DNA from: a virus
IMG/VR virus record: IMGVR_UViG_3300047362_000789
Location: 1-24,517 of that record
Reading direction: 5' to 3' (one strand)
DNA length: 24,517 nucleotides
Of the stretch, positions 5,969-24,517 are shown one piece after another. The number at the start of each line of letters is the position of its first letter. Position 1 is the first letter of the stretch. The notes below the pieces were generated by a model that was given only the letters and a program-made list of their open reading frames with translations, made no database searches and was not told the origin of the DNA. Both the position numbers and the translations under genes were made by a program.

Positions 5969-6337
5969 ATGGCAGCTGCAAAAACACTGCAACCTGATTC
6001 TATTTTTGCGGAACTAGACGCAGATGGAGATGGTATAATCACAGACGAAGAAATGTCTCGTGCAAAAGAAATAGCAGAATTTGAACATAAACGTAATATG
6101 CAAGAAAACGAAGATAAAAAAGAAGATCAAATAAGGGCTATGGCATGGTTTGCTCTTTGGGGTATGTTACTGTATCCTATTTTAATATTAGCTACTTCTT
6201 TTTTAGGAGTAAAGGATGCCGCACAGTTAATAGGAGATATAGCTCCTACTTATTTTGTAGCTATTGCCGGACTAGTTGCTGCATTCTTTGGTGCTCAGGC
6301 ATACTCAAAATCAAAAACTAGTACAGATAAAAAATAA
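5969..6337 (+). CDS. EF-hand protein with two membrane helices
   Basis: This 122-residue protein starts at an ATG with AAAGGAG eight bases upstream. Residues 17-28 (DADGDGIITDEE) form a textbook 12-residue EF-hand loop, with Asp at positions 1, 3 and 5, Thr at 9 and Glu at 12, so calcium binding is likely. A charged helix follows (about 30-55), then two hydrophobic segments (about 56-78 and 85-105) separated by a short acidic loop. One EF-hand in front of two membrane helices is compatible with a small membrane channel or holin-like protein gated by calcium, but that is inference. It lies between the spanin candidates and another short membrane protein, which supports a lysis or envelope role. 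Confidence 0.7.
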   Translation: MAAAKTLQPDSIFAELDADGDGIITDEEMSRAKEIAEFEHKRNMQENEDKKEDQIRAMAWFALWGMLLYPILILATSFLGVKDAAQLIGDIAPTYFVAIAGLVAAFFGAQAYSKSKTSTDKK

Positions 6338-6770: not shown

Positions 6771-7154
6771 TTATACTGCTTCTCGTATCATTGAGAAATA
6801 GTTTCGTGAGTAATAACCTTCTAACTCTTTATAACTTCCTAATAGTTTTCCATTCATATAAATACAAGGAGAATAATTCAACCCTTTTGATATAGCTTCT
6901 TGAGCAGTAGACTCACTATGAGTTTGATGGTGTATATGCTCTTCTCCATGTTCTTTTAGCAATTGTAGTGCTTTTTGTGACCAATCACAGTTAGGTATAG
7001 ATACCATACTCCAAACTACTTTTTTTGAGTTATCTTTCAGCCAGCTTGCTGGCTTAGGCGGAGACGGGATAGTCTCTTCTTTTTTTACAGGTATAGGCTT
7101 CTTAACGGGGTTAGGTTTATTAGTAGCTTTAGCTGTAGTAGATTTTTCTGTCAT
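6771..7154 (-). CDS. Glutaredoxin-like protein, CxxS active site, extended N-terminus
   Basis: This 127-residue protein's C-terminal ~80 residues fit the glutaredoxin fold: a strand KVVWSMVSIPN, the active site Cys56-Asp-Trp-Ser59, and the TVP-like cis-proline segment YSPCIYMNGKLLGSYKEL (Pro96). The second Cys of the usual CPxC is Ser, so it resembles monothiol glutaredoxins, though an extra Cys97 follows the cis-proline. The first ~40 residues are a low-complexity linker rich in Pro, Lys and Thr (NPVKKPIPVKK). With NrdA/NrdB in the same genome a role in reducing ribonucleotide reductase is plausible, but monothiol chemistry would be unusual for that. AAAGGAG precedes the ATG. It is the last gene of the minus-strand block. 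Confidence 0.7.
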   Translation of the reverse strand: MTEKSTTAKATNKPNPVKKPIPVKKEETIPSPPKPASWLKDNSKKVVWSMVSIPNCDWSQKALQLLKEHGEEHIHHQTHSESTAQEAISKGLNYSPCIYMNGKLLGSYKELEGYYSRNYFSMIREAV

Positions 7155-7165
7155 AATTAACTCCT

Positions 7166-7453
7166 TTAATGTAATATACCTAGAATATCAGACTCTTTTA
7201 CTATTAGAAGATCTTCTCCATCAATAGTTACTTCTGTGCCTGACCACTTACCAAACAAAATAGTATCTCCCGTAGATACAGATAAGGGTACTAATTCCCC
7301 ATTATCTTTTCTTATTCCTTTGCCACAAGCTACTACTGAACCTTCTGCAGGTTTTTCTTTAGCACTTTCAGGAATTATAATACCTCCTGAAGTAGTTTCT
7401 TCTGTTTCTGTTCGTCTAACAAGCACCCGATCTTGAAGAGGTGTTAATGCCAT
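7166..7453 (-). CDS. groS: Co-chaperonin GroES (Cpn10)
   Basis: This 95-residue protein has the full length and features of GroES: N-terminal [12 protein letters not shown], a mobile loop with the conserved [16 protein letters not shown] (GroEL-binding hydrophobic triplet III), the roof loop around [14 protein letters not shown], and the C-terminal strand ILGIL. It caps the GroEL chamber. No groEL is seen here, so it would work with the host GroEL, as gp31 of T4 does when capsid protein is folded. It lies between thyX and the glutaredoxin-like gene, 12 bases downstream of thyX. AAGGAG is well placed before the ATG. Confidence 0.93.
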
Positions 7454-9592: not shown

Positions 9593-9766
9593 CTACAAGT
9601 ATTTACCATCAGGAGTATGAGTACTTGAGTTATACCAAGCCCATATAATACAATTAAACTTACTGTAACGACTATACCAAGGGCCTATATCCGTTACACC
9701 AAGACACCAACCTTGATGTCTTAAGTGATAATACCAGTCAACAATTCTTTTATATCGTTGGATCAT
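9593..9766 (-). CDS. Aromatic-rich small protein of unknown function
   Basis: This 57-residue protein reads MIQRYKRIVDWYYHLRHQGW, then CLGVTDIGPWYSRYSKFNCI and IWAWYNSSTHTPDGKYL. It is very rich in Trp and Tyr and has two Cys. The start at 9766 is chosen because GGAG lies six bases before it; ATG 9778 is an alternative. It overlaps the end of the lipoprotein-like gene by 17 bases, which indicates coupled translation. It is the last gene of the cassette before the terminator at 9557-9583. I do not recognise the family. It has no long membrane segment, although the C-terminal FNCIIWAWY is hydrophobic. Confidence 0.5.
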   Translation of the reverse strand: MIQRYKRIVDWYYHLRHQGWCLGVTDIGPWYSRYSKFNCIIWAWYNSSTHTPDGKYL

Positions 9767-9938
9767 ACTGCTCTCCATTATAGCCTGGATATGTATCTTT
9801 ATCTTGAACACCAGAGTTGCAGCCCACAACTACGATTAATAAAAATACTATAGACCATAAGGTTACTCTTTTACTCCACATAATAAACAAGTTAAAAGTT
9901 TTCTCTGCTTCTATTTGTGCTTGCTCTCTTGGTGTCAT
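9750..9938 (-). CDS. Small lipoprotein-like membrane protein
   Basis: This 62-residue protein has a hydrophilic first 24 residues, one hydrophobic segment (VTLWSIVFLLIVVVG, about 25-39) and Cys40 in a Val-Val-Gly-Cys context that fits a lipobox. The remaining 22 residues (CNSGVQDKDTYPGYNGEQYD) are polar and could face the periplasm. The n-region is long for a signal peptide. An internal ATG at residue 20 (9881) would give a classical lipoprotein signal, but no Shine-Dalgarno precedes it, whereas AAAGGT precedes the ATG at 9938. That ATG overlaps the DoxX-like stop (ATGA). Function unknown; its position suggests it serves with the pseudoazurin and DoxX-like proteins at the inner membrane. Confidence 0.6.
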   Translation of the reverse strand: MTPREQAQIEAEKTFNLFIMWSKRVTLWSIVFLLIVVVGCNSGVQDKDTYPGYNGEQYDPTI

Positions 9939-10336
9939 ATTCTATTACCTTTTAGTGCAAAATACATTCCACCTACCCATAGTAAGACATGGAAATGATC
10001 ATACAATATTACGTCCCAAAAACTTTCTGGTTGGCTTGTCCATATAACTCCAGTCAATATACTTGCAATAGTAATACCTGAGAAACGTGTAATTAGATCG
10101 CCTATCTCTTTAAAATACTTTTGATGGATGATCAAACCTCCTACTAACAATCCTAACCCTGCTCCTAGTTCACCTAGTACAACAAAAGCCCAGACAAGTA
10201 ATGTTAGTTCTACAGGGGAGTCTTCTACATTAATTGGCCACTTGTCAAGACCTTGCTGTAGAAAAACTACAACAAGGGGGATTCTTAACAACCAATGAGT
10301 CATACAAAACTCTGGAATACGGCTTACCCAACTCAT
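9935..10336 (-). CDS. DoxX-like four-helix membrane protein
   Basis: This 133-residue protein has about four hydrophobic helices. The first reads HWLLRIPLVVVFLQQGLDKW, a pattern of Arg, hydrophobic face, then 'GldK' typical of the DoxX family. Later helices are LLVWAFVVLGELGAGLGLL, a segment near ITIASILTGVIW, and FHVLLWVGGMYFAL. DoxX and DoxD relatives include the membrane part of archaeal thiosulfate:quinone oxidoreductase and proteins of oxidative-stress and membrane redox systems; most bacterial members have no proven reaction. The ATG overlaps the pseudoazurin stop (ATGA) and its stop overlaps the next ATG, so production is tied to the copper protein. A link to quinone-level electron flow is inferred from family and neighbour only. 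Confidence 0.6.
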   Translation of the reverse strand: MSWVSRIPEFCMTHWLLRIPLVVVFLQQGLDKWPINVEDSPVELTLLVWAFVVLGELGAGLGLLVGGLIIHQKYFKEIGDLITRFSGITIASILTGVIWTSQPESFWDVILYDHFHVLLWVGGMYFALKGNRI

Positions 10337-10752
10337 AGCTCAGCCAATAGTTCTTTTAGTTTCTTCTTTGACTTGCCACGAACTTTGGCACCTGAGATAT
10401 CATTGTCTCCGTCACCTACAACAACAATAGCAATCATGCCCATTGTTTTGTGTGGAGTACACTGATACAAATACACACCCGGTGTATCAAATGTAATAGA
10501 AACTTCTTTGCTAAGTTTTGATTTTTTTGGCGCTTTCCATCCATCTGGGCCCGCAATAAATTCTACATTGTGACCTTTTTGTGTTGGTAGCCAAGTAATT
10601 GTATCGCCTACATCAATACGTGCGATATCTTCACTGTACACCATTTTAGCGCCATCATCACGCTTGTTTAACATTTCGATAGTCATGTCTTCTGCAAATG
10701 CTGGTGTCGCTAATGATGCCATTATAGCAACTGTATATAGTAATTTTTTCAT
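10333..10752 (-). CDS. Pseudoazurin-like periplasmic blue copper protein
   Basis: This is a 139-residue protein with a Sec signal peptide MKKLLYTVAIMASLATPAFA and likely cleavage after Ala20. The mature part is a single cupredoxin domain. All four type-1 copper ligands of pseudoazurin can be placed: His61 in QKGHNVEF, then Cys98, His101 and Met106 in YQCTPHKTMGM, with the C+3/C+8 spacing of the family. A C-terminal Lys-rich helix (GKSKKKLKELL) is also pseudoazurin-like. Pseudoazurins carry electrons in the periplasm, classically to nitrite and nitrous oxide reductases. The start is chosen for the signal peptide and the AAGGAA seven bases upstream; the frame is open further upstream without such support. 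Local GC is well above the phage average, suggesting acquisition from a bacterial host. Confidence 0.88.
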   Translation of the reverse strand: MKKLLYTVAIMASLATPAFAEDMTIEMLNKRDDGAKMVYSEDIARIDVGDTITWLPTQKGHNVEFIAGPDGWKAPKKSKLSKEVSITFDTPGVYLYQCTPHKTMGMIAIVVVGDGDNDISGAKVRGKSKKKLKELLAEL

Positions 10753-10753
10753 T

Positions 10754-10936
10754 TTATTTCCTTTTGTTATGCATTTCTTGAATCTGCAATATACAACGTT
10801 TGGCTTCCTCGTGGTAACCCATTCTTGCGAGCTCCGCTGCTGCTCTGGAGTACCCAATCGTCTGTGTAAACCGATCTAAGGAAGACCACAAACCCGACAA
10901 GGGTGAGAAGATATAGTTTGTTACTAAAGCTGTCAT
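10754..10936 (-). CDS. DUF1127-like micro-protein
   Basis: This 60-residue protein has a hydrophobic start (MTALVTNYIFSPLSGLW) and then the stretch SRAAAELARMGYHEEAKRCI. That stretch is typical of small alphaproteobacterial proteins related to DUF1127, which often come as several short genes near one another. Its ATG overlaps the stop of the upstream DUF1127 gene (TAATG), and AGGGGG lies eight bases before it. GC is high here: the 60 bases 10801-10860 are 58% GC by hand count against about 17% for a replication-gene line such as 15841-15900. That suggests recent host origin. In some bacteria DUF1127 proteins affect RNA turnover and phosphate or carbon metabolism, but a role here is unknown. 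Confidence 0.6.
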   Translation of the reverse strand: MTALVTNYIFSPLSGLWSSLDRFTQTIGYSRAAAELARMGYHEEAKRCILQIQEMHNKRK

Positions 10937-11169
10937 TATAGCCACCCCCTATTTTCAATTTTAGAGCCTGAACGAGCTACATGGTAAATGTCGCCTCGGG
11001 TAAGACCTATATCTTCTAAGTCATAGTCTGATAATCTAGATAGCTCTTTTATAGTTTGTTTAGTTATGCGCTTTTGTTTATAATACTGTGCAAAAGTTCG
11101 TAAAGAATCTATTAAGTTTTCAATTATTTTAGTAGAGAAATTATGTGCTATTAATATATGCTGTGTCAT
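10936..11169 (-). CDS. DUF1127 (YjiS-like) small basic protein
   Basis: This is a 77-residue protein whose segment LSRLSDYDLEDIGLTRGDI is a close match to the DUF1127 core 'L..L.d..L.DiGl.R.di'. The N-terminal half holds a basic helix (YYKQKRITKQTIKEL). Start at 11169: GAGG lies about nine bases upstream, and the alternative ATG at 11178 would abut the Shine-Dalgarno directly. The ATG overlaps the stop of the upstream micro-gene (TAATG). DUF1127 is widespread in Alpha- and Gammaproteobacteria and short members have been linked to regulation through RNA binding. In a phage it could adjust host transcripts or metabolism, but that is inference. Confidence 0.8.
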   Translation of the reverse strand: MTQHILIAHNFSTKIIENLIDSLRTFAQYYKQKRITKQTIKELSRLSDYDLEDIGLTRGDIYHVARSGSKIENRGWL

Positions 11170-11330
11170 TATACCCATCCTCTTAAGTTAGGATTCATGT
11201 TCCCGTATATTAATTTCTTTTGTCTTCTCTCTAGGTCTACTAGGTCAGTAGATTGAGCTAGGTACTCATTAATTCTTTCTTGCTCTGTTTTTGGTTTTAA
11301 TTTACTAAATAGTCTTTTTAAAAGTTTCAT
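11169..11330 (-). CDS. DUF3563-like micro-protein, first gene of the cassette
   Basis: This 53-residue ORF begins at ATG 11330 with GGAG about seven bases upstream and ends at TAA 11171-11169. It starts with a basic amphipathic helix (MKLLKRLFSKLKPK) and then has INEYLAQSTDLVDLERRQKK. That resembles the 'YL..s.DhaDLErR...l' core of small proteobacterial proteins grouped as DUF3563. It lies directly after the promoter-like sequence at 11353-11381, and its stop overlaps the start of the DUF1127 gene. Function is unknown. It is below common gene-calling length limits and easy to miss, but Shine-Dalgarno, coupling and family match all support it. Confidence 0.7.
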   Translation of the reverse strand: MKLLKRLFSKLKPKTEQERINEYLAQSTDLVDLERRQKKLIYGNMNPNLRGWV

Positions 11331-11479: not shown

Positions 11480-11555
11480 TGGTGCTCCCACACGGACTCG
11501 AACCGCGGACCTATTGATTACAAATCAATTGCTCTACCAGCTGAGCTATAGGAGC
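11480..11555 (-). tRNA. tRNA-Thr (anticodon UGU), CCA encoded
   Basis: The minus strand folds as a full cloverleaf. The acceptor GCTCCTA pairs with TGGGAGC (one T-G wobble); the D-arm is GCTC..GAGC; the anticodon stem ATTGA/TCAAT encloses loop TTTGTAA, giving anticodon TGT; and the T-arm has TTCGAGT. Discriminator A and CCA are encoded in DNA. It reads ACA codons, frequent in this AT-rich genome. The 5' end lies one base after the nrdB stop, so it must be cut out of the operon transcript by host RNase P. Confidence 0.97.
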
Positions 11556-11556
11556 T

Positions 11557-12687
11557 TTATAAACTAAATCCTTCGAATGATTTATCACTAACATCTTTTT
11601 TTGTGCCACCGATAACATAACTAGAAATTTCAGTTTCTTGAGGGGCTACTTGTACTTCTGCCCCACTTATCCATTTTTGAGTCCAAGGAAGAGGGTTAGC
11701 TCTAGGAACACTAAAATCAGGCTTTACTCCTGCAGCTACTAGTCTTTTATGAGTTATCCACTCTACGTAGTCACTTAGTAATTGAGCATTCAAACCAATC
11801 ATTGAACCATCTTTAAATAAGTATTCTGCCCATTGTTTTTCCTGCTCCATAGCTTCTGTAAACATACTTCTAACAGTATCCTCACACTCAGGAATAATAG
11901 TAGCATAATCAGGATCATCTTTAGGTAATAATTTAATCATTTGCTGTGTGGAGGCAAGATGTAAGTTTTCATCGCGGGCAATTAATTTAATAATCTTAGC
12001 GTTGCCTTCCATCTTCTTTAGTTCGGCAAATGCCCAACTACATGCAAAGCTTACATAGAAACGAACACCTTCTAAGATATTAACACTAGCTATGCAAAGA
12101 TACAATAATTTTTTAAGCTCATACATATCAACTACGTACTTTTCACCATTAATTGTGTGGGTTCCCTCACCAAATAATTGATATAGTTTGCTTAATCTTA
12201 GAAGCTCATCATAGTACTTAGTAATATCAGAGGCGCAGTCTGTGATCTCAGTAACATTCATCATCTCATCAAATATAATACTAGGATTAGTATAAATATT
12301 TCTAATAATATGAGTGTAGCTACGAGAGTGAATAGATTCACTAAAAGTCCAAGTTAAAATCCAATTTTCTAACTCTGGAAGACCTACTATTCCTCCAAAA
12401 GCTTCTACAGGAGCTCTTCCTTGAACAGAATCTAGTAAGATTTGCCGTTTTAAGTTTGCAGTAAAAATATGCTGCTCATGCTCTGTTAAACCTCTAAAAT
12501 CTTTACTATCTTTAGTTACATCTATCTCTTCTGGGCGCCAAAAGAAACCTAACTGCTTATCTGTAAGTTTATCAAATTGTTTATACTTTAAAGTATCATA
12601 CCTCTGAATGTCTACTCCTCCTTCGGGATCTAAAAACATTAGGGAGGTTAAGTGTTTATTTCTGCTGTTTTCATTTAATACTGACAT
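11557..12687 (-). CDS. nrdB: Ribonucleotide reductase class Ia beta subunit NrdB
   Basis: This 376-residue protein is close in length to E. coli NrdB. The diiron ligands and radical tyrosine are all visible: Asp86 (ILLDSVQGR), Glu117, His120 and Tyr124 (SESIHSRSY), then Glu in NILEGVRFY, and Glu and His in ARDENLHLA. The first four are each two positions from their E. coli numbers. The C-terminus ends SDKSFEGFSL, the flexible tail that docks on NrdA. It generates the tyrosyl radical used by NrdA to reduce ribonucleotides. Start at 12687, where AAAGGA precedes the ATG; the frame also runs back to a TTG at 12711 overlapping the nrdA stop, which is less likely. It lies 11 bases downstream of nrdA. 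Confidence 0.95.
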   Translation of the reverse strand: MSVLNENSRNKHLTSLMFLDPEGGVDIQRYDTLKYKQFDKLTDKQLGFFWRPEEIDVTKDSKDFRGLTEHEQHIFTANLKRQILLDSVQGRAPVEAFGGIVGLPELENWILTWTFSESIHSRSYTHIIRNIYTNPSIIFDEMMNVTEITDCASDITKYYDELLRLSKLYQLFGEGTHTINGEKYVVDMYELKKLLYLCIASVNILEGVRFYVSFACSWAFAELKKMEGNAKIIKLIARDENLHLASTQQMIKLLPKDDPDYATIIPECEDTVRSMFTEAMEQEKQWAEYLFKDGSMIGLNAQLLSDYVEWITHKRLVAAGVKPDFSVPRANPLPWTQKWISGAEVQVAPQETEISSYVIGGTKKDVSDKSFEGFSL

Positions 12688-12698
12688 AATTTTTTCCT

Positions 12699-15014
12699 TT
12701 ATAATACACAACTTTCACAATAGTCATCATACTCTTCGTCTGAGTCAAAACTATCTCTGTCTAATTCTTCTTTATCTTCTAAGCTACTTAAGTCTAATTC
12801 CCCTTGTCCATCATAGGTATTAAAGTAGTATAGTTGTTTACCGCCATACTTATAAAACATTAATAGATGCTGTAACATTAAACTCATAGGTATTTTTTCT
12901 TCTTCAAAGTATTGAGGATTGTAACTTGTATTAACACTAATTCCTTGATCAATATACTTCTGCAGTACGGCCATAATCTTAATATACCCTTCTGGAGAAC
13001 GTTGATCCCATAATAAATCATATTTATTCTTTAGTTTATGTATACCAGGAACTACTTGTTTTAATACTCCATGTTTAGACTGTTTAATACTTACTAAACT
13101 TCTGGGAGGTTCAATACCGTTAGTACTATTACTTATCTGTGCGCTAGTTTCTGCAGGCATAAGAGCCATTAGTGTTGAATTACGAATACCTGTTGTTTTT
13201 AACTGCTCACGTAGCCCTTCCCAATCCATACGCTCTACATGAGGAACTAGTTCATCTACGTCTTTCTTATATGTTTGATTAGGTGTAAGGCCGTGTCCAT
13301 ATTTTGTTTCCATAACTCCTGGGCAGGCACCCTTATCAACAGCTAAATCTGCGCTTGCTTTAATTAAGTAATAACTCCATGCTTCTGCCCATTCATCTAT
13401 CAGAGACAATCCTTGCTCATCTATATCTTGATAATTAAGATTATTTTTAGCTAACCAGTATGCAAAATTAATAATACCAACGCCTAAAGGCCTTCTTTTT
13501 TCTGTAGATAGCTGTGCTGCACGTAAAGGATAATCTTGATAACTTAATAGAGCATCTAGTCCTCTTACGGCTAAAGCCCCTACTCTCTCAAAATCCTCTT
13601 TACATTTTACATTGCCCCAATTAACAGCGCTCAAAGTACATAGACTTATTTCACCTTCTTCATCAAATATGTCTTTTAAAGGCTTAGTAGGTAAGTCTAT
13701 CTCTGCACATAGATTAGACTGATGAATAGGAGCTATCTTTTCATCAAAACTAGAATGTGTATTAGCATGATCTACATTTTGTAAATAGATACGTCCTGTA
13801 TTTTTACGTTCTTCCATAAAGGAAGAAAATAGATCAATAGCACTTACAGTTTTCTTTCTTAGCTTTGTGTTTTTTTCTGCGCCCTCGTACATAATTTTAA
13901 AAGTATCAGGGTCATTAAAGAATGAATCGTACAATCCTGGAACATCACTAGGAGAGAATAAGGTTATATCTCCTCCAGTAATTAAGCGCTCATAAAATAA
14001 CTTATTGAATTGTACTCCATAGTCCATATGTCTTACACGGTTTTCTTCTGTGCCTTTATTATTCTTTAATACTAATAAGTCTTCTACTTCAAGATGCCAT
14101 ATAGGGTAATATAAAGTAGCCGCCCCGTTTCTAACACCTCCTTGAGAGCAACTTCTTGTAGCTGCTTGAAACATCTTATAAAAAGGGATTACCCCTGTAT
14201 GATAGGCGTCTCCTTTACGTATGGGAGAACCGATAGACCTAATTCTTCCTGCTCCAATACCAATACCGGCTTTTTGACTGACGTATTTAACGATACTAGA
14301 ACTAGTAGCATTAATACTGTCAAGACTGTCATCAGCTTCAATAAGTACGCAAGAAGAGAATTGTCGTTGTGGCGTACGCAGACCCGCCATGATAGGAGTA
14401 GGCAGGCTAAGCTCATGCAAACTAATAGCGTCATAATAATCTTTTACCCATTTTAATCTAGTTTCTTTAGGATAGTTAGCGAACAGTGTCATAGATATTA
14501 ACATATAGGCTACTTGAGGTGTTTCGTATATAATCTCTTCAACTCTATTTTGTACTAAATATTTACCTCTAAATTGCTCCATAGCAACATAAGTTAATTT
14601 ATCATCTCGTACATGCTTTATATACTTATTAATAGTTGAAAATTCTTTTCTAGAGTAGTTTTCTATAAGTTCAGGATCATAAAATCCTAATTTTACATTT
14701 TTATCTACTATAGAATAAAGATCAGGAGGGTCAAATTGACCGTATACTTCTTTACGAAGATTATAGTTTATTAGTCTTCCTGCTACCCATTGATAATTAG
14801 GAGTTTGCTCGGATATTAAATCTGCGGCACTTTTTATAAGTGTTTCTTGTACGTCTGAAGTTTTAATACCGTCAAAAAACTGTATTTGACTTTTAATCTC
14901 TACTTCACTAGGACTTACTCCTGCTATACCCTCACAAGCTAAAAAAACTACCTTATGTAGTTTTTCAATGTTTAGATCTTCTTTTTTACCTGTTCTCTTT
15001 ATAACCTGTATCAT
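12699..15014 (-). CDS. nrdA: Ribonucleotide reductase class Ia alpha subunit NrdA
   Basis: This 771-residue protein has an N-terminal ATP cone (about residues 1-90, beginning MIQVIKRTGKKEDL), so it probably keeps allosteric activity control. Catalytic residues are present: Cys222 (RQFSSCVL), Asn434, Cys436 and Glu438 (SNLCAEIDLP), Cys459 (SLCTLSAVN), and the paired Tyr of QLYYFNTYDG that relay the radical. The C-terminus ends in Cys-Glu-Ser-Cys-Val-Leu, a CxxC that exchanges thiols with glutaredoxin or thioredoxin. It reduces NDPs to dNDPs with NrdB, supplying dNTPs for phage replication. AAGGAG precedes the ATG, and the gene follows the gp46-like gene by nine bases. Confidence 0.96.
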   Translation of the reverse strand: MIQVIKRTGKKEDLNIEKLHKVVFLACEGIAGVSPSEVEIKSQIQFFDGIKTSDVQETLIKSAADLISEQTPNYQWVAGRLINYNLRKEVYGQFDPPDLYSIVDKNVKLGFYDPELIENYSRKEFSTINKYIKHVRDDKLTYVAMEQFRGKYLVQNRVEEIIYETPQVAYMLISMTLFANYPKETRLKWVKDYYDAISLHELSLPTPIMAGLRTPQRQFSSCVLIEADDSLDSINATSSSIVKYVSQKAGIGIGAGRIRSIGSPIRKGDAYHTGVIPFYKMFQAATRSCSQGGVRNGAATLYYPIWHLEVEDLLVLKNNKGTEENRVRHMDYGVQFNKLFYERLITGGDITLFSPSDVPGLYDSFFNDPDTFKIMYEGAEKNTKLRKKTVSAIDLFSSFMEERKNTGRIYLQNVDHANTHSSFDEKIAPIHQSNLCAEIDLPTKPLKDIFDEEGEISLCTLSAVNWGNVKCKEDFERVGALAVRGLDALLSYQDYPLRAAQLSTEKRRPLGVGIINFAYWLAKNNLNYQDIDEQGLSLIDEWAEAWSYYLIKASADLAVDKGACPGVMETKYGHGLTPNQTYKKDVDELVPHVERMDWEGLREQLKTTGIRNSTLMALMPAETSAQISNSTNGIEPPRSLVSIKQSKHGVLKQVVPGIHKLKNKYDLLWDQRSPEGYIKIMAVLQKYIDQGISVNTSYNPQYFEEEKIPMSLMLQHLLMFYKYGGKQLYYFNTYDGQGELDLSSLEDKEELDRDSFDSDEEYDDYCESCVL

Positions 15015-19943: not shown

Positions 19944-21251
19944 TTAATTTGAATTTATATGAAATTGTTGCTTATCATACCATTGTAATCTTTTTTCTTG
20001 CATGTTTTTTACTATAGGTCCTCGTAGCCAAAAGTCTACAATGAGAGGAAATTTCTTTTCCTCGTGTTCTCTTACTATCCTACCTATTCTCTGTTCTAGT
20101 TTAGCATAGTTATTTTGAGGACAGGTAAAGAATATAGTATCTAATCTATGACAAGATATTCCTTCATCAAATATTTTTGTACTTAGTATAGCATTAATAG
20201 ACTTACCAGCATTTTCTAATATATATTCTCTATCCGAATTTTTAGTTGCGCCTACTAAAAGCCTAGACCCTTCTAACTTTTCGTGTATACCGTTGAGCAT
20301 ATCAATTCGTTCACTTACTATTAATATACATCTACCTAGTGCTATTTTTCTTCTAGCTGTATCGCATATTAAATCTATATAGTTGTCGTTTCTTGCTAAA
20401 GTATTTAGAGCTAATGCCCAGTCTCTAGCAGGATTTCTTATTCTAAAATTAATATCTGTACGTACAACCTCTACGGAGGGGGTAAGACGTGCTTTATCTA
20501 TTGCAGTTATTCTGTTAGGACCAAAGTAGTCAGATAATACTATATGCATACCATCTTTTCTAGTTGGGGTAGCAGATAAGGCTATTTTAGTTCTGGCACT
20601 TAACCCGTTGACTACTTTGCTAAACATTTCAGCAGGGCATAAATGTGCTTCATCTACTAACACTACTTCAAAATTATTTTTTAGCGTGTCTAGATGATTT
20701 ATAAGAGTTTTATATATAGCTACTGTAATATCTTTTACCTGTAGTTTACCATCGCCAATAAACCCTATATCTTCTCCAGGTATTAATTCTTTTAAAGAGT
20801 CATACCACTGATATGCTAATAGTTTAGTATGTACTATAATAACGGTAGGTTTAGAATTATTAGCTATCAAATAACAACCAAGAAAAGTTTTACCCCAACC
20901 ACAAGGAGCTTTTATAAGACCGTTATACAGTCTTTCATTTTTATATATTTTATTAGCTACTTGTTGCTGTTCTGTTTTTAGCCTGCCTTTAAATTTCCAG
21001 TTTCTTCTATTAAAAAGAGGTCTATTATCTACCACATTTTTAAAGTCTATTTTATAAAAAGACCCTGAAGGTATAGAATGAGTATATTCTCCTTCTTCAG
21101 GAAATTGAAAAGTAGTAGCAAATTCATCACCTATTTTATAGTGAAAATGATCATAAAATATATCATCTACTTCTTGTTCTAAATCTTCTTTTTTGAAATA
21201 GATTTTATCTGAGATTGTAGCATTTTTTAAAACAAATTTAGTATAGCTCAT
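19944..21251 (-). CDS. SF2 DNA helicase, UvsW-like
   Basis: This 435-residue protein has superfamily 2 motifs in order: Walker A IKAPCGWGKTF (about 113-123), Asp-Glu-Ala-His (200-203, VLVDEAHL), Ser-Ala-Thr (226-228, IALSATPTRKDGM) and motif VI QRIGRIVRE near 395. The N-terminal ~100 residues before LKTEQQQVANKI form an accessory domain, as in T4 UvsW and related phage helicases. It would remodel branched DNA and R-loops and help the switch to recombination-driven replication. The ATG overlaps the previous stop (ATGA), so it is co-translated with its upstream neighbour. Confidence 0.88.
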   Translation of the reverse strand: MSYTKFVLKNATISDKIYFKKEDLEQEVDDIFYDHFHYKIGDEFATTFQFPEEGEYTHSIPSGSFYKIDFKNVVDNRPLFNRRNWKFKGRLKTEQQQVANKIYKNERLYNGLIKAPCGWGKTFLGCYLIANNSKPTVIIVHTKLLAYQWYDSLKELIPGEDIGFIGDGKLQVKDITVAIYKTLINHLDTLKNNFEVVLVDEAHLCPAEMFSKVVNGLSARTKIALSATPTRKDGMHIVLSDYFGPNRITAIDKARLTPSVEVVRTDINFRIRNPARDWALALNTLARNDNYIDLICDTARRKIALGRCILIVSERIDMLNGIHEKLEGSRLLVGATKNSDREYILENAGKSINAILSTKIFDEGISCHRLDTIFFTCPQNNYAKLEQRIGRIVREHEEKKFPLIVDFWLRGPIVKNMQEKRLQWYDKQQFHINSN

Positions 21252-21772
21252 AATCTTATTCTATCCTTTTTATTATAGAAAGCGCTAAATTCATAAATAT
21301 GCCAACAAAAATCTATGTAGACTAATCCTGCCCATAAGTTTTTTAAATTTTCAATATTAAGTAAAAATTTAGGTAGCTCAAAAGGGTGACTTATATCTTC
21401 TACCCAAAAAGCAGTTTCTTTTACTTTTATTATTTTTCTATAACTCATTTTATAGTGCTTATAGTAGTTATCGAAGTAGTGGGTATTTAAATTACTATCA
21501 TAACACCATTTACTTTTACTAAGAAGTAGCGCACTTAAATTTGTACAAGTATAATCGTATTTTATAGTATAGTTATTAATACTATTTAAGTACTCTAACC
21601 TCTTTAAGTAGTTATTATCAGACATATTATCCCAGCTATCTACTAATAGTAAACTATCAGAAGAGATAAAATCCTTTTTAATAAATAACTTTTTATCTCT
21701 AAATATCTCATCTACAGGAGAATTTTTTAAAGTAAATATAGGATATTTTATATTATAAAACTTACTTCTCAT
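21248..21772 (-). CDS. Unknown protein (174 aa) between helicase and sulfotransferase-like genes
   Basis: I do not recognise this protein. It is rich in Tyr, Lys, Asn and Ser (for example YYKHYKMSYRKIIKV), and ends in a hydrophobic aromatic stretch (AGLVYIDFCWHIYEFSAF) with a short basic tail. No nucleotide-binding or nuclease motif is seen. Its start overlaps the sulfotransferase-like gene by 11 bases and its stop overlaps the helicase start (ATGA), so it is made with both. A partner or substrate-binding subunit for the sulfotransferase-like protein is one possibility based on the coupling. Another is a replication accessory factor. Confidence 0.55.
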   Translation of the reverse strand: MRSKFYNIKYPIFTLKNSPVDEIFRDKKLFIKKDFISSDSLLLVDSWDNMSDNNYLKRLEYLNSINNYTIKYDYTCTNLSALLLSKSKWCYDSNLNTHYFDNYYKHYKMSYRKIIKVKETAFWVEDISHPFELPKFLLNIENLKNLWAGLVYIDFCWHIYEFSAFYNKKDRIRL

Positions 21773-22403
21773 AGCCTCTTAGTCTTAACCAATTATTTAG
21801 TCTGCTGTTATGCTTATAGTTTTTTTCAGATATATAGTTTTTAAAGTTTGTGTGCTCTAGATTAATATGATTATGATGATACATAGTAATAGGATCTTGC
21901 TCACCGATAGTTAACTTATTTGATATTAGTATATTCTTTTGTATACTATTACTATCAGATAGCTCATCTAATATATACTTAGGCAGTAGTAAATTTAAAT
22001 ATCTAACTATTTTGTAAATCGCTCTATCTATATTTAATATATCATACTCATACCTAAGACTGAGTACTTTTAAATCTTCTTTTATAGCTTTATCAAATAC
22101 TAAGTGATCATAGTCTAGTAAAAAGTCAAACCAATCTTTAAAGGTATTTACATTAAATTGCTTATAGGACCACTCGCAGAATTCTTCTTCCGTTAAGTTT
22201 CTTTTTCTCATAATAGAAGCAGTTATAGATCTTAAATCTCTATAGGAATATATATTAAAGTCTGTAGAGCATACAGGATATGTTATCCATTTCTCATGAC
22301 ACTTTTTTACATTTGTAACTATAAATCTCTTATTGATTAACTGTTTACAGATATTAAAAGAAACAGTAGTGCCGCTTCTATAAAGCCCGTTTACATATAT
22401 CAT
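21762..22403 (-). CDS. Sulfotransferase-like P-loop protein
   Basis: This 213-residue protein has an N-terminal strand and loop MIYVNGLYRSGTTVSFNICK. The Gly6-x-x-Arg9-Ser-Gly-Thr-Thr13 motif is the 5'-phosphosulfate-binding loop of PAPS-dependent sulfotransferases. A second motif, Tyr-Arg55-Asp-Leu-Arg-Ser59 (IYSYRDLRSITAS), fits the 3'-phosphate-binding segment. Near the C-terminus INLEHTNFKNYISEKNYK resembles the substrate-domain end of the family. It could transfer sulfate to a sugar, protein or small molecule; the target is unknown. Its ATG overlaps the polymerase stop (ATGA). Length is on the short side for sulfotransferases. The alternative is a related P-loop kinase, but the 'YRSGTT' form argues for the first. 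Confidence 0.65.
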   Translation of the reverse strand: MIYVNGLYRSGTTVSFNICKQLINKRFIVTNVKKCHEKWITYPVCSTDFNIYSYRDLRSITASIMRKRNLTEEEFCEWSYKQFNVNTFKDWFDFLLDYDHLVFDKAIKEDLKVLSLRYEYDILNIDRAIYKIVRYLNLLLPKYILDELSDSNSIQKNILISNKLTIGEQDPITMYHHNHINLEHTNFKNYISEKNYKHNSRLNNWLRLRGYEK

Positions 22404-24517
22404 CGATAGTCTTTAAGCTCCCCCCAACTAGGACCTACTTCAATATCTACTTTAATAGGCTTGCCCTCAATAAACACGCCTCTATCTTTTTGTAAGTTCA
22501 AAGCTAAGTTATCTGCGTAAATATCTATATAGTCTTCTCTAACCTCTGCGATAGTAGAATCATGTACTGTAGCAAAAATTCTAATATTATCTTGGTGCTG
22601 ATTATCTTGTACCCATTTAACAGTGTCTACAATACCCAGTAAGTTAATATCTGACGCAACACTTTGAATTAAAAAGTTCAGGCCGGACCGCTCTGCATGA
22701 GCAGCTACCCCTCTAGAATCAGCTCCTGCTTCTGGAAGACGTCTTTTACGTCCGAATGCACTATAAGTAAAATGATTTTCTTTAATAAAAGAAATATTAC
22801 CATCAATCCATCTTTTTAAATCTTTTGCTTGAGTAAAATACAACTTGATAAAGCGCTTAGCTTCTTCAATAGATACATTAGCAGTTTCTGCAATTTTAGA
22901 AGGGCCAGCACCATATAAAATACCAAAGGTAATAGCTTTTGCATTTTGTCTTTCAGCAGCATATAAATTTTTTACTTCGTCAATCTCACAAGGAAGTTTA
23001 AACATGCTGTGAGCTACGTAAGAGTGAAAATCTAATTCTTCTACAAAAGCTCGCTGTAAAAAAGAGTCTTCAGCTAGCGCAGCAGCTACATATACTTCTG
23101 CTGTTCCTAAATCCGCTTGTACTATTTTAAATCCTGGAGAGGCTTTAAAAAACTTTTTAATACCTGAGTCTTTATCTCTAGGAAGATTTTGGTAATTAAG
23201 AACTCCAGAAGACGATAGACGCCCTGCAGCAGTTCCAATAATGTTAAAGCTAGAACGAAGTCTATTATCTGCGTCTACTCCGTTCTTAATATTTTTAATA
23301 TAAGTTGTAGAAAGTTTTACTTTCTTACGGAGATCAAGGATAGCATCTGCAAGAGGATTATTCATTTCAGAAAGTACTTCTGCATCTGTAGATTTAGCAC
23401 CTGTTGCAGTCTTCTTAGTAGAAGGAAGCTTTAATATGTTAAATAGCACCTCTCGTAGATGAAAAGTACTGTTAGGATTAAAAGTCTTTTTTTCTTGTTC
23501 CTCAAAAATTTTAATAGCAGGGTGCATAGATATTTCAGCCATACACTCTTCAATATCAATTTTAAAATCTTCTTCAATATCAGTTAGTACTTGAAGCTCA
23601 ATAGGGCCTCCAGTATCTTCTAAATACATAAGAGCCTCAGTAGCAGGTTTTAATAATTCTTTGTATACATAAGAAAATTTAGAGTTCTTATCTATTAAAG
23701 GTTTAAACTTATCATAAAGCTGAAAAGTAGCATCAGCGTCTTTACAAGCATAAGGAGATAAAATATCTAAAGGTAGCATACCATAATTAAAATCTGCCAG
23801 TAAGATTTTATTTTTTCTACAAAACTCTTTCTTATAGTCATGTAAATCTTTGTCATAATCTCCTAAGTCAGTGAATTTCATAGCTAGTTGTTTTAGACCA
23901 TGAGAGCCTACCGTTTCATCTAAACAATAGTGCATAAGAATAGTATCTTCAAACTTTGGAAACTCAAACTTTAATGCTTGATACATAAATTGTACATCAA
24001 ACTTAGCATTATGTAGTACAATAGTTTTATCTATAAACATTTGTTTTACTTCGTCATAGAACTCTTCTACCACATCACAAGCTACAAAAATACCTTGATG
24101 AGAACGGGCAGACATAGCTATACCAATAATAGAACCTTTTCTAGCAGATAGCGCAGTAGTTTCAATATCTACAACTAAAGTATCGGCTTTTTTAAACTGC
24201 TCTAGGTAAGGCAAAAACTCTTCTGAAGTACTAATATAAGCGTAGTCTTTTTCGTATACTAAAGGCTGCTCTCCTGCTAGAACACTTCTTACTTTGTCAA
24301 AACATTTTTGCAGCTCTAATCTGTACTGAGGTTTAATAGATAGCATATTAGGATCAATAATAGGTATATACTTCTCTTCTACTATCTGACCTGCATACTT
24401 AAGTATGCCTGTAAGTCCTGAAGTATATTTTAAAGATTCTGCACCTACAGGACAGATAATATCATACTCATCTAGCGTAGTTAAATCTAGATCTACATTT
24501 TTCTTTAGAATTTTTTC
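22400..24517 (-). CDS. Family A DNA polymerase with UDG-like N-terminal segment (5' end outside window)
   Basis: The frame is open from the window edge, giving 705 residues; the Met at 24346 has no Shine-Dalgarno and is internal. Residues 1-78 contain DIICPVGAESLKYTSG and later YIPIIDPNML, which match the C-terminal half of the uracil-DNA glycosylase superfamily, with Asp where the usual His-Pro motif has His. Then follows a 3'-5' exonuclease domain (VVDIETTA, LHNAKFDVQF, YACKDAD). The family A polymerase motifs are A (QADLGTAEVYV), B (RQNAKAITFGILYG, with Phe at the position of E. coli Phe762) and C (TVHDSTIAEV, Ser after His-Asp). There is no 5'-3' nuclease domain; that activity is encoded at 8134-8985. 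It replicates phage DNA and heads the replication operon within the window. Confidence 0.95.
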   Translation of the reverse strand, partial: EKILKKNVDLDLTTLDEYDIICPVGAESLKYTSGLTGILKYAGQIVEEKYIPIIDPNMLSIKPQYRLELQKCFDKVRSVLAGEQPLVYEKDYAYISTSEEFLPYLEQFKKADTLVVDIETTALSARKGSIIGIAMSARSHQGIFVACDVVEEFYDEVKQMFIDKTIVLHNAKFDVQFMYQALKFEFPKFEDTILMHYCLDETVGSHGLKQLAMKFTDLGDYDKDLHDYKKEFCRKNKILLADFNYGMLPLDILSPYACKDADATFQLYDKFKPLIDKNSKFSYVYKELLKPATEALMYLEDTGGPIELQVLTDIEEDFKIDIEECMAEISMHPAIKIFEEQEKKTFNPNSTFHLREVLFNILKLPSTKKTATGAKSTDAEVLSEMNNPLADAILDLRKKVKLSTTYIKNIKNGVDADNRLRSSFNIIGTAAGRLSSSGVLNYQNLPRDKDSGIKKFFKASPGFKIVQADLGTAEVYVAAALAEDSFLQRAFVEELDFHSYVAHSMFKLPCEIDEVKNLYAAERQNAKAITFGILYGAGPSKIAETANVSIEEAKRFIKLYFTQAKDLKRWIDGNISFIKENHFTYSAFGRKRRLPEAGADSRGVAAHAERSGLNFLIQSVASDINLLGIVDTVKWVQDNQHQDNIRIFATVHDSTIAEVREDYIDIYADNLALNLQKDRGVFIEGKPIKVDIEVGPSWGELKDYR

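Follow-up and report, generated by a model that had tools for sequence, protein, structure and literature searches.

A pseudoazurin cassette of marine phages in which copper and heme electron carriers exchange places

Introduction

Cyanophages carry a plastocyanin gene as part of a mobile cassette that also includes PTOX (Sullivan et al. 2010, PMC3037559). A sequence-only reading of the DNA studied here had named this as the known parallel to a gene for a different copper protein, pseudoazurin (Paz), and the parallel is a sound one. It raises the question of which host pathway a phage pseudoazurin would serve, and between which partners it would carry electrons. The earlier proposal was that the protein supports periplasmic electron flow in the host, possibly to a nitrite or nitrous oxide reductase or to another acceptor. 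In the open literature, a body outside which preprints and most subscription papers lie, we found no report of a phage pseudoazurin or cupredoxin as an auxiliary gene, and none of DoxX, a family related to one of the neighbouring genes, in a phage. The DNA analysed, referred to below as the window, is the whole of a virus record of 24,517 bases, and the features discussed are collected in Table 1.

Table 1. Coordinates of the cassette and of selected neighbouring features in the window
Feature	Position	Strand	Remarks
Small ORF	9593..9829	-	78 aa; overlaps COX4-like gene; resembles an 80-aa ORF at 18 Paz loci (by eye only)
COX4-like small protein	9750..9938	-	62 aa; one TM segment, V-V-G-C, Tyr-rich tail; overlaps DoxX-like gene by 4 bp
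DoxX-like four-helix membrane protein	9935..10336	-	133 aa; start overlaps pseudoazurin stop by 4 bp
Pseudoazurin (Paz)	10333..10752	-	139 aa; signal peptide and type-1 Cu site; Pfam, PDB and fold matches
o63	10754..10945	-	63-aa conserved cassette protein; GTG start
DUF1127 protein	10936..11178	-	80 aa; Pfam DUF1127 1.3e-11
DUF3563 protein	11169..11330	-	53 aa; Pfam 5.8e-9; overlaps DUF1127 gene
tRNA-Thr(TGT)	11480..11555	-	ARAGORN; upstream of cassette
Ribonucleotide reductase small subunit	11557..12711	-	PHROG 3e-138
Phage family-A DNA polymerase	22400..24517	-	Nearest T5-like phages, 40% identity; marks backbone

Results and Discussion

Identity of the copper protein

The coding sequence begins with an ATG at 10752, with AAAGGA a few bases 5′ of the start, and by inspection its product opens with a Sec-type signal peptide, MKKLLYTVAIMASLATPAFA; export to the periplasm is predicted. 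The copper ligands are His61, Cys98, His101 and Met106 (precursor numbering) with the spacing of a pseudoazurin (C-x2-H-x4-M), and all four are invariant in an alignment of 21 viral members (alignment A1). The motifs GHNV and C[ST]PHxxMGM are found in 89/89 distinct complete viral pseudoazurins. The signal peptide and ligands are those listed in the sequence-only reading, and the lysine-rich C-terminal helix listed with them is likewise present, as one helix with lysines at residues 127–138 of an AlphaFold model with a pLDDT of 76. Solved pseudoazurins have a C-terminal extension of two helices.

In both sequence and fold the protein is a pseudoazurin, closer to that family than to amicyanin, plastocyanin or azurin. 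It matches Pfam Copper-bind with an E-value of 7e-16, and among solved structures the best matches are pseudoazurins at 8e-25, about twelve orders of magnitude better than amicyanin (about 1e-12), with plastocyanin at 4e-8. The first 27 Foldseek matches of the model in the PDB are all pseudoazurins, with a TM-score of about 0.8 by target, and no other cupredoxin takes the lead. The identity given earlier therefore stands on sequence and fold, with the qualification that the score against the NCBIfam pseudoazurin model TIGR02375, 102.5 bits, is just below the curated cut-off of 109.85 bits; a viral relative (L042) scores 113.6 bits and a bacterial one (L083) 100.1 bits.

Pairwise dN/dS among the 89 distinct viral proteins has a median of 0.16 and a 95th percentile of 0.32, which supports the view that the viral gene is kept under purifying selection. 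A chance match is excluded because of the E-values together with a dN/dS of about 0.16. The copper site is intact, the protein looks functional, as had been proposed, and it is predicted to transfer electrons. Its fold, four copper ligands, secretion and C-terminal helix are common to the bacterial proteins of the TIGR02375 family, such as those of Achromobacter, Paracoccus and Sinorhizobium. It differs from them in being carried by a phage, within a conserved cassette.

The gene belongs to phages

The entire window is contained in a second IMG/VR contig of 75.8 kb (L002). At least one residue differs between the two (D/N in the ORF at 21248–21772), so L002 is a separate assembly, and because the whole window recurs within it there is no chimera at the pseudoazurin gene, the doubt that had been raised about the contig. 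The genes around the cassette are those of a phage and include a UvsW-like helicase, gp46/gp47-like nucleases, ribonucleotide reductase (RNR), ThyX, a 5′-3′ exonuclease, a RusA-like resolvase, a tail fibre and a spanin. Some further copies of the cassette likewise have RNR genes at their flanks. Near thyX, adjacent genes at 6771–7453 encode a glutaredoxin-like protein (sub-threshold) and GroES, while the ORF at 5969–6337 in the lysis region encodes an EF-hand-like motif and, after it, two membrane segments, with a similar protein at L289:8468-8791.

A scan of IMG/VR identified 285 viral stretches that encode relatives of the pseudoazurin, and the gene is common among marine phages. The T4 major capsid gene is present on 4 of 28 contigs tested and in one of these (L053) this gene, gp23, lies about 650 bp from Paz. 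On the basis of the capsid and polymerase matches, both T4-like backbones and a backbone with a T5-like polymerase, that of the window, carry Paz. Among cultured phages neither the window pseudoazurin (at 1e-5) nor the DoxX-like protein has a match, and a search with L042 returned only cyanophage plastocyanins, with about 32% identity and E-values of 5e-4 or worse.

It is extremely improbable that the locus is an artefact, whether a gene of the host brought in by chimeric assembly or wrong binning or a functionless gene carried only transiently. Misassignment does occur, since phage contigs with Paz are contained in public bacterial bins (L082, L089 and L097 in genome_contigs, labelled Muricauda, Rhodobacteraceae Water_Bin34 and Neomarinimicrobiota). 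Against an artefact are the repetition of the region in the longer contig, the capsid gene beside Paz in L053, the low dN/dS across 89 distinct versions and the presence of the cassette in phages with unrelated backbones.

Composition of the cassette

The pseudoazurin gene belongs to a recurrent cassette that is common to the phage of the window and to T4-like phages, a setting that the sequence-only reading had not recognised. In the window the genes for o63, DUF1127 and DUF3563 are upstream of Paz on the same strand. Across the first 81 Paz loci examined, the COX4-like gene is present at 75 and the DoxX-like gene at 65, with o63 and DUF1127 each near 34; two further families with no copy in the window, s57 and m119, are found at 63 and 55 loci respectively. 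When the DoxX-like protein was used as the query, 71 additional loci were retrieved and 61 of them contain Paz.

Pfam DoxX is matched by 12 of 13 members of the DoxX-like family at E-values up to 0.01 (best 1e-7). At 18.3 bits the copy in the window is below the gathering score of 23.6 and is therefore named DoxX-like; a chromosomal homologue scores 26.9 bits, above the cut-off. A structure search with a model of the DoxX-like protein (pLDDT 72) gave no PDB match below an E-value of 0.3.

For the COX4-like family the sole Pfam match is COX4_pro_2 (PF07835, subunit IV of the aa3 oxidase in alphaproteobacteria), found for 10 of 12 members at E-values up to 0.01 (best 1.1e-5), with the window copy at 21.9 bits for a gathering score of 22. 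The N-terminal segment F..F..W.K and the single transmembrane helix of COX4_pro_2 align with the phage version, and by eye the COX4 of marine Rhodobacteraceae resembles this part of it. After the helix the phage proteins add a conserved Cys-Asn and a Tyr-rich tail of about 20 residues, with the motifs CN.GV and Y.G..Y.P, which host versions lack, and for this reason we call them COX4-like and do not file them as members of COX4_pro_2. The cysteine after the helix fits a lipobox (V-V-G-C), and processing to a lipopeptide is therefore an alternative for this protein.

The m119 protein (L014:5285-5644) is a two-helix membrane protein with a GGEHE end, encoded in at least 569 viral stretches in marine phages. 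A distant relative is found in the isolated Methylophilales phage Melnitz, with no carrier or DoxX-like gene near it, and the idea that m119 is specific to electron transfer was rejected on these grounds. Genes for porin-like outer-membrane proteins are seen near many cassettes (L014:7405-8211, L124:3721-4482) and elsewhere in the 75.8-kb contig, and a porin is also annotated in Pelagibacter phage HTVC008M.

Pseudoazurin and cytochrome c exchange places

In several cassettes that lack Paz a cytochrome c is encoded beside the usual partners, either as a protein with a signal peptide and CxxCH motif adjoining m119 (L233, L237 and L247) or adjoining the DoxX-like gene (L184-L186). A scan with this cytochrome c returned 51 viral loci and pseudoazurin is present in none of them (0/51). 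The partners at these 51 loci are DUF1127 (33), o63 (32), the DoxX-like gene (23), m119 (14) and the COX4-like gene (7). The DoxX-like gene abuts Paz within 60 bp at 112 loci and cytochrome c at 26. The clearest case is L289, where the order is DUF1127, o63, DoxX-like, cytochrome c, m119, s57 and COX4-like, and where the COX4-like protein is nearly identical to that of the window. The closest solved relatives of the phage protein, a class-I cytochrome c, are mitochondrial-type cytochromes c (E 7e-24).

The 281 viral loci were collapsed into 124 contig clusters, of which 75 contain Paz, 23 contain cytochrome c, none contains both and 26 contain neither. The DoxX scan, which is blind to the carrier, gave 36 clusters with Paz, one with cytochrome c, none with both and five with neither. 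Clusters with neither carrier within reach make up about half of those from the m119 scan and 5/42 of those from the DoxX scan. Given the 86% share of Paz among DoxX clusters in the carrier-blind scan, the probability that 0/10 clusters with DoxX and cytochrome c would also contain Paz is about 4e-9 under independence, a value that is an order of magnitude at best, since relatedness below 97% identity leaves the clusters only partly independent. Two carriers unrelated to each other, pseudoazurin and cytochrome c, whose sole common property is periplasmic one-electron transfer, thus interchange beside the same partners. A comparable exchange is familiar from algae, where plastocyanin and cytochrome c6 replace each other.

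The exchange bears on a role for pseudoazurin in copper or redox stress, in which the protein would buffer periplasmic copper, supply the CuA/CuB sites of the oxidase or feed a cytochrome c peroxidase. A copper protein adjoining an oxidase-subunit-like protein would fit such a role, and DoxX-family proteins are present in some stress operons. We nevertheless consider it quite unlikely, as the protein that replaces Paz in otherwise similar cassettes is a cytochrome c and no carrier of copper, and the property that the two share is one-electron transfer.

Secreted cytochrome c genes are found in the marine phages L184, L237, L247 and L289 and at other loci (L275-L325), where they often abut a DoxX-like gene. 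A literature search by phrase for phage cytochrome c yielded only the reported reads of viral cbb3 oxidase (PMC3474794). An ORF that by eye resembles 5-aminolevulinate synthase lies a few kb from the cassette in a 201-kb T4-like contig (L266:2267-3466), and phage genes for heme synthesis of this kind have been reported (PMC11480375).

Bacterial relatives and the choice of acceptor

The nearest bacterial pseudoazurins are those of marine alphaproteobacteria. The core viral group is placed with Rhodobacteraceae sequences in the tree (SH-aLRT 87, not starred). Records labelled Pelagibacterales, Rhodospirillaceae, Rickettsiales and others come next, but the alignment has only 143 columns, which makes such details weak. 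For the core viral sequences, 62 rows in all, the AU test does not reject a single clade (p 0.46). A deep lineage (L266, L229, L236 and L269) and a copy from a large phage (L097) lie outside the core clade; we therefore set aside one common origin for every viral copy, more than one acquisition being likely. The tree supports acquisition of pseudoazurin by phages from marine alphaproteobacteria, and the dN/dS values support its retention, both in line with the earlier reading. Some sequences labelled as bacterial fall within the viral clade; L089, when inspected, has the look of a phage contig, and L083/L326 (Rhodobacteraceae MED-G08) that of a genuine chromosome.

The respiratory genes of these relatives are informative about the acceptor. 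Across 20 bacterial genomes with the nearest pseudoazurins, CtaD of the aa3 oxidase is encoded in 16 and COX4 scores over its cut-off in 14, the host COX4 gene being about 1.2–1.3 kb from ctaD in G009, G010, G011 and G046, whereas NirK is above cut-off in none (0/20). It is unlikely that the phage protein feeds a periplasmic NirK or NosZ of the host and so supports anaerobic or microaerobic respiration during infection. Characterised pseudoazurins do pass electrons to the reductases of nitrite, NO and N2O (PMC12848317), and in low-oxygen SAR11 an island holds genes for NirK, pseudoazurin, a 2OG-Fe(II) oxygenase, RNR R2 and cbb3 oxidase together (PMC12816887). Against this, besides the result of the search for NirK, the cassette neighbourhoods that were inspected showed no reductase gene, and Paz is exchanged for a mitochondrial-type cytochrome c and accompanied by an oxidase-subunit-like partner. 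The part of the sequence-only reading that placed the protein in host periplasmic electron flow thus remains plausible, but the nitrite or nitrous oxide reductase it had named first is not supported. Its other branch, another acceptor, is the better one and most likely a cytochrome c oxidase, because of the distribution of NirK and CtaD, the COX4-like and DoxX-like neighbours and the cytochrome c exchange.

Bacteria seldom encode a DoxX-like protein of this family: it is found in 4 of 289 alphaproteobacteria, and three of the four also have pseudoazurin (hypergeometric about 0.003, by hand calculation). Paz and DoxX-like genes share no operon in their bacterial context, save that in two genomes the DoxX-like homologue adjoins a gene for an NDH-2-like quinone reductase. 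This neighbour would suit a bypass of the bc1 complex, in which the DoxX-like protein itself oxidises quinol and reduces the carrier, the phage bringing both reductase and shuttle. The DoxX-like gene is also the partner that abuts both carriers, and DoxD, a relative of DoxX, is a subunit of thiosulfate:quinone oxidoreductase. We regard a bypass as rather unlikely, since an Fe-S or heme partner is usually needed for one-electron oxidation of quinol, no cofactor site has been demonstrated in this 133-aa protein and the fold search with its moderate-confidence model was empty.

A proposed shuttle to cytochrome c oxidase

The reading we prefer, with a probability of roughly 60%, is that the carrier shuttles electrons through the periplasm from the quinol end of the chain to the cytochrome c oxidase of the host, with which the COX4-like protein would be associated. 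We infer these redox partners because the copper and heme carriers exchange, because a neighbour resembles an oxidase subunit, and because the bacteria with related pseudoazurins mostly possess aa3 oxidase and lack NirK above cut-off. Once expressed during infection, the carrier would accept electrons from the quinol side (bc1 complex), possibly with the help of the DoxX-like protein, and pass them to the oxidase. The COX4-like protein would bind the oxidase and may, through its tail, assist in docking the carrier. The benefit to the phage would be that respiration with oxygen, the proton-motive force and the supply of ATP continue during the shutdown of host gene expression. As other phages have cytochrome c in the same slot, the phages probably sustain oxygen respiration of the host.

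Several observations count against the shuttle. The COX4_pro_2 and DoxX scores of the window are below the curated cut-offs, some clusters contain neither carrier, and the COX4-like protein has a cysteine that fits a lipobox. Most characterised pseudoazurins serve denitrification enzymes, the one from Paracoccus being expressed anaerobically (PMC12848317), and in low-oxygen SAR11 strains pseudoazurin is located between the nirK and cbb3 oxidase genes (PMC12816887).

A broader form of the shuttle reading is more tentative, with odds somewhat short of even: that the cassette is a widespread phage module for rebuilding the aerobic chain, composed of a copper or heme carrier, a modified small subunit of the oxidase that docks the carrier and a DoxX-like partner on the quinone side. 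The exchange of copper for heme may track the supply of iron and copper in the sea.

Comparison with known systems

The cassette resembles that of cyanophage plastocyanin (PetE, PHROG 515) in that a secreted one-electron cupredoxin is encoded by phages, in a mobile cassette in T4-like marine phages, and in that both consist of auxiliary genes for electron transport. As there, it is carried by bona fide phages, under selection, and derived from hosts. PetE belongs to another cupredoxin family, the window protein matching it only at an E-value of 4e-8, and serves cyanobacterial photosynthesis with no oxidase-subunit-like or DoxX-like partner. To our knowledge no exchange of cytochrome for copper protein has been reported for the petE cassette. 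The cassette described here can be seen as a respiratory counterpart of the cyanophage one, with exchangeable carriers, and phages of what are probably heterotrophic marine alphaproteobacteria appear to do for oxygen respiration what cyanophages do for photosynthesis. If so, control of respiration by viruses in abundant marine bacteria would be directly testable, the carrier gene would serve as a marker for how phages economise on metals, and the exchange would be a natural experiment on the carriers that a cytochrome oxidase accepts. The small phage proteins m119, s57 and o63 also gain a first functional setting.

The SAR11 island is similar to the phage cassette in that a marine alphaproteobacterial pseudoazurin gene is close to genes for an oxidase and for the RNR small subunit, with pseudoazurin, the 2OG-Fe(II) oxygenase and RNR R2 side by side (PMC12816887). 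The island is chromosomal and has nirK and cbb3 operons, whereas the phage cassette has neither and has the DoxX-like and COX4-like genes. As pseudoazurin near NrdB is also the arrangement in the phage, part of the SAR11 island could be phage-derived.
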